Source of the DNA: an uncultured Caulobacterales bacterium | Lineage (GTDB): Bacteria; Pseudomonadota; Alphaproteobacteria; Caulobacterales; Caulobacteraceae | Assembly: GCA_903858185.1 (NCBI GenBank) | Contig: CAIOHT010000132.1 | Span: 48,898 to 112,897, forward strand | Direction: 5' to 3' | Length of the DNA stretch: 64,000 nucleotides | Shown here: positions 9,633 through 55,775 of the stretch, piece by piece | Numbering within the stretch: the stretch's first letter is position 1 | Layout of the letters: each line of letters opens with the position of its first letter | The notes under the pieces: model-generated | What the model saw: the letters and a program-made list of their open reading frames with translations, nothing else | Databases searched by the model: none | What the model was told of the DNA's origin: nothing | Program-made: the position numbers and the translations under genes

Positions 9633-9763
9633 GGTCGGAGAACGGCCCCTCTGGACGGCGGAAACTGACTGTCACCCTAACCTGTCAGGCGTAAAGGGGC
9701 GATGAACCTCGCGCGAGACGGGAAGCCGGAAAGCCTTTGACCCGGCGCGGGTGTCCCCCGATC

Positions 9764-10678
9764 ATGCCGGGGATGGATGCGCGGGCGGTCTTTTCAGGAG
9801 CGGATGACGAGACCGGGGGCAGACCCGCGTTCCAGGTCATGGCCGCCGATCCGCCGCCGACGCCGCTGGTGTTCGCCTCGCCCCACTCCGGACGACACTA
9901 TCCGGCTGTCATGCTGGATGCGGCAGCCGTCGACACCGAGGCGCTGCGGCGATCCGAAGACGCCTTCGTCGACGAGCTGATCGCCCCGGCCTTCGCTTCC
10001 GGCGCGTCGGTGATCACCGCCCGCTATGGCCGGGCCTGGATGGATCTGAACCGCGAGCCCTGGGAACTGGACCCGGCGATGTTCAGCGACGCCCTGCCCG
10101 ACTTCGCCCAGGGTCGTTCGGCCCGCGTCGCCGCCGGACTGGGGGCCATCGCCCGCGTGGCCGCCGAGGGCCGCGAGATCTATGCCCGCAAGCTGACCTT
10201 CGCCGAGGCCAGGGCGCGGGTGGAGTCGACCCACCTGCCCTATCACGACGCGCTCGACCGGCTGCTGGCGCGCGCGCGCGGGGCCCACGGGATGGCGGTG
10301 CTGATCGACTGGCATTCCATGCCCGAGGCCGCCGCCCGCACGGCCGTTACGCCTCGCCACGGCAAGGGCTGCGACATCGTGCTGGGCGACCGGTTCGGGG
10401 CGGCCTGCACCCGCAAGCTGACCGATCTGGTCGAGCGCGAGCTGGAGGCCATGGGCTATCGCGTCGCCCGCAACGCCCCCTACGCCGGCGGCTACACCAC
10501 CGAACACTACGGCCGGCCGGCCAACCGCACCCACGCCCTGCAGATCGAGATCAGCCGCGCGCTGTATCTGGACGAAAGGACGCTGGAGCCAACCGCGGGC
10601 CTGGCCAAGCTGACGGCCGACGTAGGCCGGCTGACGGCGGTGCTGGCCGAGCGCTGGCCCAGCCTCAGGCCGGCCTAG
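9764..10678 (+). CDS. N-formylglutamate amidohydrolase family protein
   Basis: About 304 residues. Family landmarks are VFASPHSGRHYPA, SEDAFVDELIAPAFASGA, ARYGRAWMDLNREPWELDP, VLIDWHSMPEAA and NAPYAGGYTTEHYGRPANRTHALQIEISRALYLDE. Conserved His/Asp/Glu residues suggest metal-dependent hydrolysis of N-formylglutamate or a similar N-formyl amide. No other histidine-degradation gene is adjacent, so a role in hut catabolism is not shown. The start is uncertain: ATG at 9764 or 9773, or TTG at 9737; none has a strong ribosome site. The gene is divergent from cpdR, an arrangement I recall from other caulobacters. Confidence 0.88.
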   Translation: MPGMDARAVFSGADDETGGRPAFQVMAADPPPTPLVFASPHSGRHYPAVMLDAAAVDTEALRRSEDAFVDELIAPAFASGASVITARYGRAWMDLNREPWELDPAMFSDALPDFAQGRSARVAAGLGAIARVAAEGREIYARKLTFAEARARVESTHLPYHDALDRLLARARGAHGMAVLIDWHSMPEAAARTAVTPRHGKGCDIVLGDRFGAACTRKLTDLVERELEAMGYRVARNAPYAGGYTTEHYGRPANRTHALQIEISRALYLDERTLEPTAGLAKLTADVGRLTAVLAERWPSLRPA

Positions 10679-10730: not shown

Positions 10731-12176
10731 ATGACCTTGATCTCGACATGGACGCGACGCGGCGTGCTGGCCGCCGGCGCCGCCGGCCTGATGGCGGGGC
10801 CCGTTTCGGCCGCAGACCTGCGCGGCGATATCGCGATCCTGCGCCAGGCCTATGGCGCGCTGCATCCCGGCCTGCATCGCTATGCGACGCCGGCGGCGAT
10901 CGAGGCCGGCTTTCAGCGGCTGGAACAACGCCTGCTGGCGACCGACAGCGTCGCCGACCGCCTTCTCGCCCTGAACCGGTTTACGGCCATGGTGAAGTGC
11001 GGGCATTCCCAACCCAACCCGTTCAACCAGTCCGATGCGGTCGAGGCGGCGATCCTCAGGCCGCGCCGCCTGCCGTTCGCGTTCCGGTGGCTGGCGGGCG
11101 AGATGGTGGTCACCTGGTCCGATCCGGCGACGCCGCTGCCGAGAGGCGCGCGCGTCCTCGGGATCGACGGGCGCAGCACGGGCGACATCCTGCAGCGGCT
11201 GCTGCCGCTGGCCCGGGCGGACGGAAACAACACCGGCAAGCGCATCGCCCAGATGGGCGTGTCGGGCCAGGAAGGCTACGAGACGTTCGACATCGCCTAC
11301 GCCCTGCTGTTCGGGTCGCCCGGCGAGACGGTCGTGATCAAGGCGGTCCTGCCGGGCGGGACAGCGCCGCGCCGGATCGAGGTTGCCAGCCTGCCCGGCG
11401 GCGGGGCGCGCCTTCCGACGCCCGACAGCCGGTCGGACGCGCCGCTCTGGACGCTCGACCGCCTGCCCGGCGGCGTGCTCAGGCTGACGATGCCGACCTG
11501 GGCGATGTTCAACAGCAAATGGGACTGGCAGGCCTTCCTCGCCGACGCGCTCGACGAAGCCGCCGAGGCCCGCGCCCTGGTCGTCGATATCCGCGGCAAC
11601 GAGGGCGGCAATGACTGCGGCGACGCCATCCTCCAGCGGCTGGTGCGGCAGGACACCCGGCCCCTGCCCTACCGGCGCAAGGTCCGCTACCGCCGGGTCC
11701 CTGACGGGCTCAATCCCCACCTCGACACCTGGGACAAGAGCTTCCGCGACTGGGGCGATGACGCCGTGGGCCCCGGCCCGGACGGCTATTTCGCCCTGCG
11801 CGACGAGGCGGACGATGTCCGCGCGCTGATCCGGCCGGCCGGAAAGCCGATCGGGGGGAAGGTCTTCGTGCTGACCGACGCGGCCTGCAGCTCCGCGACC
11901 TTCCAGTTCGCCCAGGTGATCAGGGAGACCGGGATCGCGACGCTGGCCGGAACAACCACGGGCGGCAACCGGCGGGGCATCAATGGCGGGGCGTTCTTCT
12001 TCGTCAGGCTGCCGGCGTCGGGGCTGGAGGTCGACCTGCCGCTGATCGGCTATTTCCCGGACGCGCCGCAGCCTGACGCCGGGATCGAGCCTGACGTAAC
12101 GGTCCCGACGACCGCCGCAGACATCGCTGCGGGCCGCGATCCGGTTCTGGCGCGCGTCCTGTCCGGGGCGGCCTGA
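10731..12176 (+). CDS. Exported S41-family peptidase
   Basis: 481 residues with a Tat-like signal (WTRRGVLAAGAAGLMAGPVSAA). The middle contains a PDZ-like stretch (RVLGIDGRSTGDIL). The C-terminal tail-specific protease core shows LVVDIRGNEGGN and VFVLTDAACSSATFQFAQVI, where the Ser after ACS near residue 386 is the likely nucleophile, followed by AGTTTGGNRRGINGG and PDVTVPTT. The family cleaves C-terminal tails of periplasmic proteins; the substrate here is unknown. The ATG at 10731 is fixed by the signal peptide and GGGAG upstream. Confidence 0.87.
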   Translation: MTLISTWTRRGVLAAGAAGLMAGPVSAADLRGDIAILRQAYGALHPGLHRYATPAAIEAGFQRLEQRLLATDSVADRLLALNRFTAMVKCGHSQPNPFNQSDAVEAAILRPRRLPFAFRWLAGEMVVTWSDPATPLPRGARVLGIDGRSTGDILQRLLPLARADGNNTGKRIAQMGVSGQEGYETFDIAYALLFGSPGETVVIKAVLPGGTAPRRIEVASLPGGGARLPTPDSRSDAPLWTLDRLPGGVLRLTMPTWAMFNSKWDWQAFLADALDEAAEARALVVDIRGNEGGNDCGDAILQRLVRQDTRPLPYRRKVRYRRVPDGLNPHLDTWDKSFRDWGDDAVGPGPDGYFALRDEADDVRALIRPAGKPIGGKVFVLTDAACSSATFQFAQVIRETGIATLAGTTTGGNRRGINGGAFFFVRLPASGLEVDLPLIGYFPDAPQPDAGIEPDVTVPTTAADIAAGRDPVLARVLSGAA

Positions 12177-12185
12177 GCGCAGGCC

Positions 12186-12213
12186 AAAAAAAAGCGGCGA
12201 CCGAAGTCGCCGC
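12186..12213 (-). terminator. Intrinsic terminator of the small RNA
   Basis: Stem GCGGCGAC (12194-12201), loop CGAA, stem GTCGCCGC (12206-12213), with eight A on the plus strand at 12186-12193 that give U8 on the minus-strand transcript. The S41 peptidase gene ends 10 bp to the left, so the stem may also slow its plus-strand read-through. Confidence 0.9.
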
Positions 12214-12267
12214 AGTTCATTAGGGAGGAAACGCCCAGGAAGGGCAGAGGGGCCGGAGCCGCCTCAC
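12186..12267 (-). ncRNA. Candidate alpha-r8/MmgR-like small RNA
   Basis: Read on the minus strand, a promoter (12274-12301) is followed by about 82 nt. These contain a small GCCC/GGGC hairpin, the exact motif UUUCCUCCCU at 12231-12222 and a perfect GCGGCGAC/GTCGCCGC terminator hairpin ending in eight U (12193-12186). MmgR of Sinorhizobium (alpha-r8 family) is, from memory, about 77 nt with the same single-stranded UUUCCUCCCU and an intrinsic terminator. No protein-coding gene on this strand would use the terminator. Expression is not shown; the call rests on motif, layout and length. Confidence 0.7.
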
Positions 12268-12273
12268 ACCCCC

Positions 12274-12301
12274 AAGTTAGTGTGCGGCGCACAAAAGACA
12301 A
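12274..12301 (-). promoter_or_regulatory. Promoter of the candidate small RNA
   Basis: On the minus strand, TTGTCT (12301-12296) and TAACTT (12279-12274) are separated by 16 bp. This resembles a housekeeping -35/-10 pair and predicts a start near 12267. The spacer contains the palindrome described next. Confidence 0.6.
12281..12294. promoter_or_regulatory. PhaR-like operator inside the small RNA promoter
   Basis: Palindrome TGTGC-GGC-GCACA lying wholly between the -35 and -10 elements. TGCGGCGCACAA fits, from memory, the PhaR/AniA consensus TGCRNYGCASMA. Its position predicts repression. Confidence 0.55.
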
Positions 12302-12389
12302 GAACAAAACATGCGCCAGACCCGAGTTTCTTTGCGGCTCCCTTTCAGAAATCCTTGTTCCCTTGGGGCATTCTTGTCATCTGATCGTC

Positions 12390-12406
12390 ATTGTGCGATG
12401 CACAAT
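12390..12406. promoter_or_regulatory. Second PhaR-like palindrome
   Basis: Perfect 7+3+7 palindrome ATTGTGC-GAT-GCACAAT; TGCGATGCACAA also fits TGCRNYGCASMA. It lies about 90 bp upstream of the small RNA -35 and about 160 bp upstream of typA, so it could act on either. Confidence 0.55.
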
Positions 12407-12568: not shown

Positions 12569-14401
12569 ATGTCCCTGCGAAATATCGCCATCATCGCCCA
12601 CGTCGACCATGGCAAGACCACCCTGGTCGACCAGCTGCTCGCCCAGTCCGGCGTCTTCCGCGCCAACGAGGCGCAGACCGAACGCGCCATGGACTCCAAC
12701 GATCAGGAGAAGGAACGGGGCATCACCATCCTCGCCAAGTGCACCTCGGTGCTCTGGAACGGCAAGGCGGGCGAGACCCGGATCAACATCATCGACACCC
12801 CCGGCCACGCCGACTTCGGCGGCGAGGTCGAGCGCATCCTCGGGATGGTGGACGGCTGCGTCATCCTGGTGGACGCCGAAGAGGGCGTCATGCCCCAGAC
12901 CAAGTTCGTGCTGACCAAGGCGCTGAAGATGGGTCTGCGGCCCATCCTCTGCATCAACAAGGTCGACCGCGCCCACGCCGACCCCGACCGGGTGCACCTG
13001 GAGACCATCGAGCTGTTCGAGGCCATCGGCGCAACGCCCGAGCAACTCGACTTCCCGCACATCTACGCCTCGGGCCGCAACGGCTGGGCGACGATGGACC
13101 TGAGCCAGCCGAACGACAACCTGGCCCCCCTGTTCGACCTGATCGTCGACCACGTGCCGCCGCCCAAGGTCGCGGCCAACAAGGACAAGCCGTTCCAGAT
13201 CCTGAACGTGCTGATCGAAAGCGACCCCTTCCTGGGCCGCCTGCTGACCGGCCGCATCGAGAGCGGCAAGGCGGTTCCGGGCATGGCCATCCACGCCCTG
13301 GACCGTGAGGGCAAGGAAATCGAGCGCGGCCGCATCACCAAGGTCCTCGCCTTCCGCGGCCTGAAGCGCACCGCCCTGGACGAGGGCTCGGAAGCGGGCG
13401 ACATCGTCGCCATCGCCGGCATGTCCAAGGCCACCGTGGCCGACACCCTTTGCGCGATGGAGGTCACCGACGCCCTGCCCGCGCAACCGATCGATCCGCC
13501 GACCATCTCGATGACCGTCTCGGTCAACGACAGCCCCCTGGCCGGCCGCGAGGGCGACAAGGTCCAGTCGCGCGTCATCCGTGACCGTCTTCTCAAGGAA
13601 GCCGAGTCCAACGTCGCCATCCGCGTCACCACCACCCAGGGCGGCGACGCCTACGAAGTCGCCGGCCGTGGCGAACTGCAGCTGGGCGTTCTGATCGAGA
13701 ACATGCGTCGCGAAGGCTTCGAGGTCTCGATCTCGCGCCCGCGCGTGGTCTACCAGACCGGCGAGAACGGCGAGAAGCTCGAGCCGATCGAAGACGTCAT
13801 GATCGACGTCGACGACGAGTTCTCGGGCATCGTCATCGAAAAGCTGTCTGCCCGTAAGGCCGAGATGACCGACATGGGCCCGTCGGGCGCCGGCAAGACC
13901 CGCATCCAGCTGAAGTGCCCGTCGCGCTCGCTGATCGGCTACCAGGGCGAGTTCCTGACCGACACCCGCGGCTCGGGCGTGATCAACCGCGTCTTCAGCC
14001 ACTACGAAGCCTACAAGGGCGAGATCGGCGGCCGCCAGAAGGGCGTGCTGATCTCCAACTCGGACGGTGAAACCGCCGCCTTCGCCCTGTGGAACCTCGA
14101 AGACCGCGGCGTCATGTTCGTCGGCGCCGGCACGAGGACCTACGAAGGCATGATCATCGGCGAGAACTCGCGCTGGGACGACCTCGACGTCAACCCGATC
14201 AAGGGCAAGCAACTGACCAACGTCCGCGCCTCCGGCAAGGACGAGGCCGTGCGCCTGACCCCGCCGCGCATCATGTCGCTGGAGCAGGCCATTGCCTACA
14301 TCGGCGACGACGAGCTGGTCGAGGTGACGCCCAAGTCGATCCGCCTGCGCAAGCAGATCCTCAACCCGTCGTTCCGCAAGAAGCGCGCCCGTCCGGAGTA
14401 G
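12569..14401 (+). CDS. typA: Ribosome-associated GTPase TypA/BipA
   Basis: 610 residues, the normal TypA length. The GTPase domain has [15 protein letters not shown] (P-loop), a [13 protein letters not shown] switch I segment, [14 protein letters not shown] (G3) and [10 protein letters not shown] (G4). It is followed by EF-Tu/EF-G-like domains II, III and V and the family C-terminal domain, ending [14 protein letters not shown]. The protein binds ribosomes and supports 50S assembly and growth under stress or cold. The ATG at 12569 gives the canonical [16 protein letters not shown] start. A strong terminator follows at 14434, and then a decayed copy of the gene's own 3' end. Confidence 0.97.
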
Positions 14402-31319: not shown

Positions 31320-31409
31320 GGCGGCGGATCATGGCGATCCGCCTGCTGCGGTGCAACATTTTTGCGCGAATGGCTTACGTTGGCGTCATGCGCGGCATGA
31401 ATAGCCCCC

Positions 31410-31506
31410 TGTCATCCCGGACGGCCGTCAGGCCGATCCGGGACCCAGCGTGGTTCCAGGCCGAATCTGGGTCCTGGCTATCCGCTTCGCTGCGACCGGG
31501 ATGACA
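31410..31506. repeat. Dispersed imperfect inverted repeat, copy 1
   Basis: Starts TGTCATCCCGGACGG and ends GACCGGGATGACA, with GATCCGGGACCCAG and CTGGGTCC inside. It shares CCAGGCCGAATCTGGGTCC with the element at 57321-57413. The arms would fold into a long hairpin. It lies downstream of the enoyl-CoA hydratase gene. Confidence 0.8.
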
Positions 31507-31507
31507 A

Positions 31508-32254
31508 CTATGAGCGCCCGAACACCGGTGGCCGCTTCTCCAGGAACGACGCCACCGCTTCCCGATGGTCCTCACTGTCCGCCAGTGTGGTGAGCGCGCT
31601 GTCCATCTCCCGAGCCTGCTCCACCGCCTCCATTCCTGCGAAACGCTTGGCGGCCTCGACCGCCAGCGGGGCCCGGGAGGCGATCAGCCCGGCGAGCGTG
31701 AGCGCCTCATCCAGCAGCGCCGCCGCCGGATACACCGCCGTGACCAGCCCGAACCGCAGCGCCGTCGCCGCATCGACGGGCGCCCCGGTCAGCAGCATCG
31801 CCTTGGCCGGCCCCACCCCGATCAGCCTCGGCAGCCGCCCCACCGACGCCATCAGCCCGACATTGACGCCGGAGGCGGTGAAGGTCGCGCCCTCGGCTGC
31901 AATGCGGATGTCGCAGGCCAGGGCCAGGTCCAGCCCGCCGCCCAGCGCCCCGCCGTTGACCGCCGCGATCACCGGCATCCGCAGGGCCTCGATCAGGGCC
32001 ATCAGCGCGTTGAAGTCACTGATCGGCGAGAGATCGTCCGGCGCCCGGTTCGCGAGCTCGCGCAGGTCGTTGCCGGCGCAGAACAGCCGGCCGCGCCCGG
32101 TCAGCACGAGGCAGCGTACATCCGGGTCGGCGTCGATCGCCTCCAGGCCCCCGACCATCAGCCGGCGCATCGCATCGCCGAGCGCATTCGCCGGCGGCAG
32201 GTCGAGTTCGATCAGCGCCACATGCGGCGAGGGTCGGCTGAAATGGATGGTCAT
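31508..32254 (-). CDS. Enoyl-CoA hydratase/isomerase-like protein
   Basis: 248 residues of the crotonase fold: LVLTGRGRLFCAGNDLRELAN and VNGGALGGGLDLALACDIRIAAE form the oxyanion hole. The segment after it reads VGLMASVGRLPRLIG, where catalytically typical members have P-E/D-x-G, so the usual catalytic acid is missing; isomerase or another crotonase chemistry is possible. It lies between the ethylmalonyl-CoA mutase gene (same strand, downstream) and crotonyl-CoA carboxylase/reductase (divergent), which suggests but does not prove a role in that pathway. Confidence 0.85.
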   Translation of the reverse strand: MTIHFSRPSPHVALIELDLPPANALGDAMRRLMVGGLEAIDADPDVRCLVLTGRGRLFCAGNDLRELANRAPDDLSPISDFNALMALIEALRMPVIAAVNGGALGGGLDLALACDIRIAAEGATFTASGVNVGLMASVGRLPRLIGVGPAKAMLLTGAPVDAATALRFGLVTAVYPAAALLDEALTLAGLIASRAPLAVEAAKRFAGMEAVEQAREMDSALTTLADSEDHREAVASFLEKRPPVFGRS

Positions 32255-32547
32255 GGCGGCGCGGTCCTCCCGTTCCGCAGACCTAGCACCGCCGACGGCC
32301 CCGCGACCATGTTGCGCCGCACAAGAATCCGCTTGCCAGTTTCAAACAGTTGTCACACGATCCTTCCCCTACGGGCGGCGAACGGCGGTGTCTCAGGGCA
32401 CAGCTTTGCGTCGAAACCGAAGAAACAGACGGATCACGGGCCGGTTTTCGTCGGGCGGCCTGATGCTTCGCGAAACGCCGGGCCACACCCCGGCGCTACT
32501 GCACCGCAACAGAACGCGCCCCAAAAGAACGCCAAACGGACCGCCAG

Positions 32548-33828
32548 ATGACCACCGCCACGCTCGAGAAGACGCCCGTGAAGGACCTCTACGAAATCGG
32601 CGAGATTCCGCCGCCGTATCATGTGCCGAAAAACATGTACGCCTGGACCGTCCGCAAGGAGCGCCACGGGCGCCCGGCGACGGCCATGCAGGTCGAGGTC
32701 GTGCCGACCTGGGAGATCGGCGAGGACGAGGTTCTGGTGCTCGTGATGGCCGCGGGCGTGAACTACAACGGCGTCTGGGCCGCGCTCGGCGAGCCGATCA
32801 GCCCGCTCGACGGCCACAAGCACCCCTACCACATCGCCGGTTCCGACGCCTCGGGCATCGTCTGGGCGATCGGCAGCAAGGTGAAGCGCTGGAAGCTGGG
32901 CGACGAGGTGGTCATCCACTGTAACCAGGACGACGGCGACGACGAGGAGTGCAACGGCGGCGACCCGATGTTCTCGTCCAGCCAGCGCATCTGGGGCTAC
33001 GAGACGCCCGACGGCAGCTTCGCCCAGTTCTGCCGGGTGCAGTCACGCCAGCTGCTGCCGCGCCCCAAGCACCTGACCTGGGAAGAGGCCGCCTGCTACA
33101 CCCTGACGCTGGCGACCGCCTACCGCATGCTGTTCGGCCACAAGCCGCATGAGCTGAAGCCCGGCCAGAACGTGCTGGTCTGGGGCGCCTCCGGGGGCCT
33201 CGGCGTCTTCGCCACCCAGCTTGCCGCGGTCGTTGGCGCCAACGCCATCGGCGTGGTCAGCGACGAGGACAAGTTCGACTTCGTGCTCAGCCAGGGCGCC
33301 AAGGCGGTGCTGAACCGCAAGGACTTCAACTGCTGGGGCCAGCTGCCGACCGTCAACGGTCCGGAATTCGGCGACTACATGAAGGAGTCCCGCAAGTTCG
33401 GGAAAGCCGTGTGGCAGATCACCGGCAACAAGGACGTCGACATGGTGTTCGAACACCCCGGCGAGGCGACCTTCCCGGTCTCGGTCTTCCTGGTGAAGCG
33501 CGGCGGCATGGTGGTGATCTGCGCCGGCACCAGCGGCTTCAACCTGACCATGGACGCCCGCTTCCTGTGGATGCGCCAGAAGCGCGTCCAGGGCAGCCAC
33601 TTCGCCAACCTGATGCAGGCCAGCGCGGCCAACCAGCTGGTGATCAACCGCCAGGTCGACCCCTGCCTGTCCGAAGTGTTCCGCTGGGACGACATCCCGG
33701 CCGCGCACGAGAAGATGCTCGATAACCAGCACCTGCCCGGCAACATGGGCGTCCTGGTCTGCGCCCAGCGCCCCGGCCTGCGGACGTTCGAGGAAGTGCA
33801 GGAGATTTCGGCGGAGATGGGGGCCTAG
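32548..33828 (+). CDS. ccrA: Crotonyl-CoA carboxylase/reductase
   Basis: 426 residues, a medium-chain dehydrogenase-type reductase of the Ccr subgroup. Family marks: EIPPPYHVPKNMYAWTVRKERHGRP, GVNYNGVWAALGEPISP, IHCNQDDGDDEECNGGDPMFSSSQRIWGYETPDGSFAQF, the NADPH loop VWGASGGLGVFATQL and GKAVWQITGNKDVDMVFEHPGEATFPVS. It carboxylates crotonyl-CoA to ethylmalonyl-CoA using NADPH and CO2, the key step of the ethylmalonyl-CoA pathway. Followed by a strong hairpin terminator at 33853. The 290-bp divergent region before it should hold its promoter. Confidence 0.95.
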   Translation: MTTATLEKTPVKDLYEIGEIPPPYHVPKNMYAWTVRKERHGRPATAMQVEVVPTWEIGEDEVLVLVMAAGVNYNGVWAALGEPISPLDGHKHPYHIAGSDASGIVWAIGSKVKRWKLGDEVVIHCNQDDGDDEECNGGDPMFSSSQRIWGYETPDGSFAQFCRVQSRQLLPRPKHLTWEEAACYTLTLATAYRMLFGHKPHELKPGQNVLVWGASGGLGVFATQLAAVVGANAIGVVSDEDKFDFVLSQGAKAVLNRKDFNCWGQLPTVNGPEFGDYMKESRKFGKAVWQITGNKDVDMVFEHPGEATFPVSVFLVKRGGMVVICAGTSGFNLTMDARFLWMRQKRVQGSHFANLMQASAANQLVINRQVDPCLSEVFRWDDIPAAHEKMLDNQHLPGNMGVLVCAQRPGLRTFEEVQEISAEMGA

Positions 33829-55471: not shown

Positions 55472-55584
55472 GCCAGTCTCCTCCACCCAGTGGCGGTACT
55501 AGGCCCGATGCCGCGAAACCGCACAAGTTGAAGCCGCCCATCCGGCCGCGGTTGACTCCCCGCCCCCGGTCCCGCACTTAAACC

Positions 55585-55775
55585 CCTGTCTCGCGGGAGA
55601 CGTCGGGGCTTGCCCCCGAGGCCGAAGGCGCAACCGCCCCGGAAACGCTCAGGCAAACGGACCGCGCGACTACTGAACGCTGGAAAGCGCCGCGTCTGCG
55701 GTGCGCCGAAGGAGCAAGGACGGTCCACACCGTCTGAAATCTCTCAGGCTCCAAGACAGCGGGGGCGAATCGCCA
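55585..55775 (+). promoter_or_regulatory. Tandem glycine riboswitch
   Basis: Two glycine aptamers in series. The first has GCGGGAG (55593-55599), GGCCGAAGGCGCAA and CCGGAAACGCTCAGGCAAACGGACCG. The second has GCGCCGAAGGAGCAAGGACGG and TGAAATCTCTCAGGCTCCAAGACAG. A short linker joins them. The element ends about 45 bp before the gcvT GTG. Glycine binding is expected to switch on the downstream glycine cleavage operon; the SD (GGAG, 55811-55814) lies in a GC-rich stretch that could be masked. Confidence 0.93.

Follow-up and report, generated by a model that had tools for sequence, protein, structure and literature searches.

The window, by which we mean the whole 64-kb stretch of DNA that was analysed, carries a small RNA (sRNA) gene on its minus strand between an S41-family peptidase gene and typA/bipA. 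This one peptidase gene separates the sRNA from the gene for N-formylglutamate amidohydrolase (FGase), and linkage to FGase has been reported for most single alphaR8 copies as well as for sisA of Caulobacter crescentus (PMC12559287). The features of the locus are the following.

9737..10678, plus strand: FGase gene (PF05013, E 1e-73), the conserved convergent neighbour of alphaR8
10731..12176, plus strand: S41-family peptidase gene (PF03572, E 5e-16), between FGase and the sRNA
12186..12268, minus strand: alphaR8 (MmgR/SisA-type) sRNA gene, about 82-83 nt, RF00519 match
12186..12213, minus strand: intrinsic terminator with UUCG loop and U8 (T8 in DNA), read from the sequence
12222..12231, minus strand: anti-Shine-Dalgarno decamer (seed) UUUCCUCCCU, DNA TTTCCTCCCT, read from the sequence
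12232..12246, minus strand: stem-loop SL2, UGCCC-UUCCU-GGGCG, DNA TGCCCTTCCTGGGCG, from the covariance-model alignment
12247..12265, minus strand: 5' stem-loop SL1, beyond the Rfam model, with compensatory changes
12275..12280, minus strand: -10-like element CTAACT, read from the sequence (CTATAA in many relatives)
12281..12293, minus strand: candidate proximal PhaR-type operator TGTGCGCCGCACA, TGTGC-N3-GCACA, inside the -35/-10 spacer
12297..12302, minus strand: -35-like element CTTGTC, read from the sequence (CTTG in the linked Caulobacter promoters of relatives)
12390..12406, no strand: candidate distal PhaR-type operator ATTGTGC-N3-GCACAAT, a perfect palindrome
12569..14401, plus strand: typA/bipA (PF21018 BipA_C and PF00009 GTP_EFTU), the divergent neighbour

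An alphaR8 small RNA gene

The RF00519 (suhB/MmgR) covariance model scores 54.9 bits at 12179-12252 on the minus strand, with a gathering cut-off of 41, and this was the sole match to the model found in the 3.49-Mb genome. Judging from the -10-like element the RNA probably starts at 12267-12268, which gives a length of about 82-83 nt. The predicted fold has three stem-loops (-34.8 kcal/mol), as has been predicted for MmgR according to a review (PMC7143759), and leaves UUUCCUCCCU single-stranded on the 3' side of a weak GCCC/GGGC hairpin. When 34 Caulobacteraceae sequences were aligned, compensatory changes were seen at 11 of the 18 predicted pairs and were present in both the terminator and SL1, and SL2 was almost without variation. 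Within SL1, both bases of pairs 14-34, 15-33 and 17-31 had changed in 10, 12 and 9 of the 34 sequences, while the pairing was lost or interrupted by a gap in 7, 4 and 5, respectively. The decamer was unchanged in all 34 aligned family copies and in 35/35 linked Caulobacter copies.

An earlier note on this DNA had described a minus-strand sRNA unit of alpha-r8/MmgR type with 16-bp spacing between -35 and -10, a GCCC/GGGC hairpin, the decamer and a U8 terminator, and each of these elements is present, the family identity being confirmed by the Rfam search. Its estimate of about 82 nt agrees with the predicted start, and its statement that a coding gene is lacking there is correct for practical purposes: the single reading frame of at least 60 amino acids over the sRNA (12050-12307, minus strand, TTG start) runs through the terminator. 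Taken together the score, the decamer after a hairpin, the terminator and the FGase linkage place the predicted RNA in alphaR8/RF00519. The locus thus appears to be the ancestral FGase-linked alphaR8 of a Caulobacter species, putatively orthologous to MmgR and, to judge from synteny, to SisA.

PhaR-type boxes at the promoter and elsewhere in the genome

The -35-like and -10-like elements enclose a 16-bp spacer which holds the proximal box, and the distal box lies 87 bp from the -35; the earlier note was right that the distal palindrome is perfect and slightly off in placing it 90 bp upstream. As the window contains 12 perfect 7-3-7 palindromes this shape alone is not rare, and the unusual feature is the sequence and not the palindromy. 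The only perfect match to TTGTGCRNYGCACAA in the whole genome is the distal box, and the sRNA locus also holds one of the two genomic sites with a single mismatch.

In order to score the boxes independently we used a PhaR matrix of 21 positions built from 15 Sinorhizobium meliloti sites in promoters rated 'Efficient' in EMSA (PMC12542648 Table 3), with the mmgR site and four exoH sites excluded. The distal box (24.6 bits) and the proximal box (17.5 bits) rank first and second in the 64-kb window, in agreement with the claim of the earlier note that both palindromes fit the PhaR/AniA consensus. The best scores in 20 Markov-simulated 64-kb sequences had a mean of 12.3 and a maximum of 18.4, so that the distal box lies beyond simulated chance and the proximal box, by score alone, near the top of chance; the latter is accepted because it is conserved in relatives and not for its matrix score. 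Both boxes fit the PhaR consensus, and the operator form YGCRNYGCR is present at the sRNA promoter as a predicted operator.

The genome encodes PhaR with both of its domains (PF07879 and PF05233), and the absence of a phaR gene that the earlier note had named as a possible objection therefore did not occur. Allowing up to two mismatches, TTGTGCRNYGCACAA has 12 sites in the genome (four for a reversed-pattern control), which include the two alphaR8 boxes and sites before phasin and PHB depolymerase (PF06850) genes. Further sites precede a P-II gene, a dus gene that has an ntrB-like gene after it, an ExbB-type gene and one more gene whose helix-hairpin-helix match is weak, or lie at a ccr-like cluster, and three have no assigned promoter (C101:11829, C132:58115, C136:395). 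A PhaR-type box is also found between phaR and a thiolase gene. The earlier note asked whether phasin and phaR promoters share the site. In this genome the same type of box occurs at the phasin promoter and beside phaR, and it recurs in relatives, as described below.

Within the window itself, matrix ranks three to five all fall in one cluster at 31341-32514, after which the next score drops to 7.9.

31341..31361, no strand: PhaR-type box, 15.2 bits, window rank 4, beside the start of a methylmalonyl-CoA mutase gene (PF01642)
31508-32254, minus strand: enoyl-CoA hydratase gene (PF00378)
32307..32327, no strand: PhaR-type box, 15.3 bits, rank 3, between the enoyl-CoA hydratase gene and the ccr-like gene
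32494..32514, no strand: PhaR-type box, 13.7 bits, rank 5, upstream of the ccr-like gene
start 32548, plus strand: ccr-like dehydrogenase gene (PF00107/PF08240)

We named the gene starting at 32548 ccr by recognition, its domain matches being PF00107/PF08240, and we take the methylmalonyl-CoA mutase, enoyl-CoA hydratase and ccr-like genes to form an ethylmalonyl-CoA type route, which the three boxes suggest may be under PhaR control. The box at the methylmalonyl-CoA mutase gene possibly belongs to the same regulon and is separate from the sRNA locus. Elsewhere in the genome, the boxes before the P-II gene (L035 1498-1518) and before the dus and ntrB-like genes (L042 1498-1518) hint at a carbon-storage input to nitrogen control. 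A box of 26.8 bits (L040 1498-1518) precedes the MotA/TolQ/ExbB gene and possibly ties PhaR to TonB-driven uptake, whose receptors SisA represses.

Conservation of the boxes and sibling copies

Within the genus, alphaR8 was present in 36 of the 37 Caulobacter genomes searched, with 98 listed copies over the cut-off; RF00519 matches below it were left out. A copy was called linked when a tblastn match of the window FGase or TypA lay within 1.5-3 kb around it. Linked copies numbered 35 of the 98, one in each of 35 genomes, and one genome (G267, 85% complete) was without one. The first promoter comparisons set aside copies that lack the exact decamer (57 loci in one of them), and the genus and class counts given here include these. 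All 35 linked copies carry a loose box, YGCRNYGCR, between -70 and -50 relative to the decamer, that is in the promoter spacer, of which just 22 have the strict form TGCRNYGCA, and all 35 carry a strict distal box at -160 to -215. In the other 63 Caulobacter copies, by comparison, the interval from -260 to -35 never contains a strict box, and in seven of them it contains a loose match. Decoys with permuted half-sites gave 0/35 in the linked and 0-7/63 in the other copies. With the decamer and the terminator also maintained in relatives, the conservation on which the earlier note had made its proposal depend was found.

As controls we looked at phasin and phaR genes. At least two strict boxes lie upstream in each of the 30 Caulobacter phasin loci examined (34 genomes had a phasin match) and a strict box is present in 14 of the 21 phaR loci examined (33 genomes had PhaR), with decoys giving 0-1 in either case. 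In the wider family, 149 genomes were searched and 43 loci read, namely the 30 best-scoring and 13 from other genera. Six copies from other Caulobacteraceae genera (L006, L024, L209, L210, L214 and L215) were scored as unlinked and yet have a strict box. A stretch resembling TTGTAACGATACGTGATCA lies between both boxes in several relatives (L003, L011, L015, L021, L023, L026 and L029).

A survey of the class covered 106 genomes, about one per family, and left the below-cut-off RF00519 matches L133 and L136-L140 uncounted. It contained alphaR8 over the cut-off in 47 genomes, PhaR in 56 and both in 45, so that PhaR occurs in 45/47 genomes with alphaR8 as against 11/59 without it, a co-occurrence inflated by reduced genomes that have neither. 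In these other families a strict box lies within 300 bp of 27 of the 35 FGase-linked copies, with five permuted half-sites giving 0, 0, 0, 2 and 0, and because of this the link between PhaR and alphaR8 looks ancestral, its loss being seen in the Caulobacter duplicates. Near the promoter, from -100 to -35, the strict box was found in 13/35 linked copies (decoys 0, 0, 0, 1 and 0), and the position in the -35/-10 spacer is well supported for Caulobacteraceae but not for every family. Of the copies scored as unlinked in the class survey, 15/24 likewise show a strict box no more than 300 bp away, perhaps partly because only 1.5 kb surrounded some copies, and the split between linked and other copies is for this reason a result for Caulobacter.

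The 98 Caulobacter copies fall into four promoter classes, class A with the PhaR box (35 copies), B (19), C (22) and D, which has neither the B nor the C palindrome (22 copies in 20 genomes). Class B comprises 19 of the 63 unlinked copies, in 19 genomes, with a TTAGCGCTAA-type palindrome, TAGCG(C/G)TA, about 52 bases before the decamer in their upstream regions (L013, L025, L027 and L074-L089). Class C, also 22 of the 63 and in 22 genomes, has GACAACGTTGTC at -55 to -57 from a seed of the variant form TTTCCTCCCA or TTTCCTCCTA (L169-L171, L174, L178, L186-L188, L190-L192, L194, L196-L200, L202, L203 and L205-L207). By their shape we take the class B and C palindromes to resemble sugar-repressor sites of the LacI type. 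Vogt and co-workers reported no motif common to sisA-D (PMC12559287), which fits operators that are each conserved inside one class only.

Caulobacter vibrioides DSM 9893 has one copy of each class over the cut-off (L152, L013, L194 and L181) and a fifth, weak RF00519 match of 31.2 bits. Its linked copy L152, which would be sisA by synteny, carries both boxes. The class D copy of this strain lies near a TonB-dependent receptor gene (L181 3133-5214), the kind of gene that SisA represses. On balance we lean towards a history in which PhaR control of the FGase-linked alphaR8 dates back to early Alphaproteobacteria and the Caulobacter duplicates lost the box, two classes gaining operators of their own, so that the siblings would feed different carbon signals (stored PHB, sugars) into one seed and one sponge, CrfA. 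The differing promoters would then explain in concrete terms why several alphaR8 copies with near-identical seeds are retained in Caulobacter.

A proposed PHB-responsive circuit, its alternatives and targets

Control of this kind is known from S. meliloti, where PHB is bound by PhaR and titrates it. The regulator represses the promoters of phasin and depolymerase genes there and attaches directly to that of mmgR, binding being rated 'Efficient', and its depletion raises MmgR (PMC12542648). A review places a dyad between the -35 and -10 of S. meliloti mmgR (PMC8401924), and repression of MmgR by PhaR/AniA through this dyad has already been published (PMC8401924, PMC12542648). The present locus shares with MmgR the Rfam family, the decamer, the length class, the dyad between -35 and -10 and PhaR-type sites at phasin and depolymerase genes, and differs in having a second, higher-scoring box upstream and in its neighbours FGase, an S41 peptidase and typA. 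With the C. crescentus SisA locus it has the RNA family, the FGase linkage and the genus in common, but there are four siblings there and a single alphaR8 in this genome. In comparison with the PhaR-phasin circuits of Paracoccus, Ralstonia and rhizobia, the repressor family, the TGC-N3-GCA boxes and the presence of at least two of them before the phasin gene are alike, whereas here PhaR would act on a small RNA gene, so that the output would be post-transcriptional.

We consider it very probable that the promoter of this alphaR8 sRNA is an operator for PhaR, a PHB-binding repressor, and that repression is lifted by PHB. The evidence from promoter and conservation supports such a reading, which is of a kind already known (PMC12542648), and since the spacer operator has the geometry of S. 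meliloti mmgR, repression by free PhaR and release upon PHB formation are predicted. Without PHB, free PhaR would occupy the spacer box and block RNA polymerase, and the distal box some 110 bp further upstream would help repression. PHB granules would titrate PhaR, allowing transcription of the sRNA alongside the genes for phasin and PHB depolymerase. With its UUUCCUCCCU exposed, and probably while bound to Hfq, the RNA would cover the ribosome-binding sites of target mRNAs.

Carbon starvation lowers SisA of C. crescentus about 50-fold, largely by way of the sponge CrfA. The seed pairing of SisA, its repression of TonB-dependent receptors and its sponging by CrfA have been shown, although it was called nearly constitutive under the conditions tested (PMC12559287). 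The alphaR8 level may therefore report carbon surplus at transcription, with CrfA removing the same RNA in carbon famine in C. crescentus, and these two layers would make alphaR8 a signal of carbon plenty that PHB turns on and CrfA off.

The earlier note proposed that a carbon-storage regulator represses this sRNA outside the rhizobia; the PhaR link is supported, but the sRNA was not undescribed there, alphaR8 RNAs having been published in C. crescentus as SisA-D (PMC12559287). The main text of that paper makes no mention of PhaR (PMC12559287), and among the open-licence PMC papers listed in our literature searches we came across none that connects PhaR with alphaR8 in Caulobacter. What appears to be new are the PhaR-type boxes at the linked alphaR8 in Caulobacter and the lack of strict ones at the other copies, the boxes at linked copies of other families, and the different palindromes of the Caulobacter siblings; the box in other orders may already have been published. 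The comparisons would extend a storage-sensor/sRNA circuit known from one root-nodule bacterium to Caulobacter and, by conservation, to many sampled alphaproteobacterial families. The model C. crescentus should be suitable for testing the predicted link, mutants of sisA-D and crfA being available (PMC12559287).

Other readings of the boxes were weighed against this one. It is possible, if on the unlikely side, that the proximal box controls the sRNA and the distal box the divergent typA promoter, so that PhaR governs two units. The distal box does lie about 160 bp before the typA start, beside a promoter-like CTTGTT...TCATCT on the plus strand; however, among the 19 Caulobacteraceae FGase-linked copies without typA in the surrounding sequence covered, the range from -160 to -215 contains a box of loose form in 15 and of strict form in 11.

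That the sRNA is real and the palindromes serve another regulator with a GTGC-N3-GCAC-like site seems improbable. Boxes of like shape before the P-II and dus/ntrB-like genes would speak for nitrogen rather than carbon control, and a few genomes keep the boxes though PhaR was not found in them, a finding that also weighs against the PhaR-operator reading itself. In G272 and G273 (estimated to be 98-99% complete; 40 and 80 contigs) neither PhaR domain was found and the alphaR8 and phasin boxes are kept, and G214 from another family (100% complete) gave no PhaR match and has boxes at -225 (strict) and -66 (loose); as these three assemblies are in 40-290 contigs the absence may possibly be an assembly gap. 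In G173 (86% complete), where PhaR was likewise not found, the FGase-linked copy has a single box, at -269. Against another regulator stand the recurrence of the box at least twice before all 30 phasin genes examined, its presence at the PHB depolymerase, phaR-thiolase and ccr-like genes and its recovery with a PhaR matrix made from S. meliloti only.

The -35/-10 spacer is the classic location for a repressor, and the half-sites of NtrC stand in the opposite order to those of PhaR-type boxes. Both points, as well as the rise of MmgR on PhaR depletion in S. meliloti (PMC12542648), make it very doubtful that PhaR or NtrC at the boxes activates the sRNA instead of repressing it, even though NtrC activates mmgR in S. 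meliloti (PMC7143759) and the distal position would suit an activator. A degenerate family relic that has lost transcription, as the 54.9 bits against 73.2 bits of the best family member might suggest, is scarcely credible given the exact decamer, the intact terminator, the compensatory changes in SL1 and the terminator and the conserved promoter and boxes.

The targets in this strain would be reached through the seed. Phasin looks doubtful as a direct Caulobacter target, as seed duplexes with phasin start regions (-8.9 to -14.0 kcal/mol at 18 loci, with starts set by a simple rule and two probably wrong) are no better than background start regions (median -13.8 kcal/mol over 41 in the window), and a role in limiting phasins, as for MmgR, would thus not be supported by seed pairing in Caulobacter. 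A genome-wide search for AGGGAGGAAA, the complement of the decamer, as a perfect target gave one occurrence, alphaR8 itself. Weak RF00519 matches beside phasin genes of several genomes were discarded, since neither TTTCCTCC nor CCTCCCT was present within 250 bp downstream in 30 phasin loci, and the three inspected resemble terminators. A PHB-limiting role, which the earlier note gives for MmgR in Sinorhizobium, would be hypothetical in Caulobacter. Five SisA targets were followed in C. crescentus, and four of them are TonB-dependent receptors (PMC12559287). In the window, the strongest seed pairing among the 41 start regions is that of the enoyl-CoA hydratase gene (minus-strand start at 32254, -23.7 kcal/mol). 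The window also holds a glycine riboswitch aptamer (RF00504, 58.9 bits) at 55584-55674 on the plus strand.
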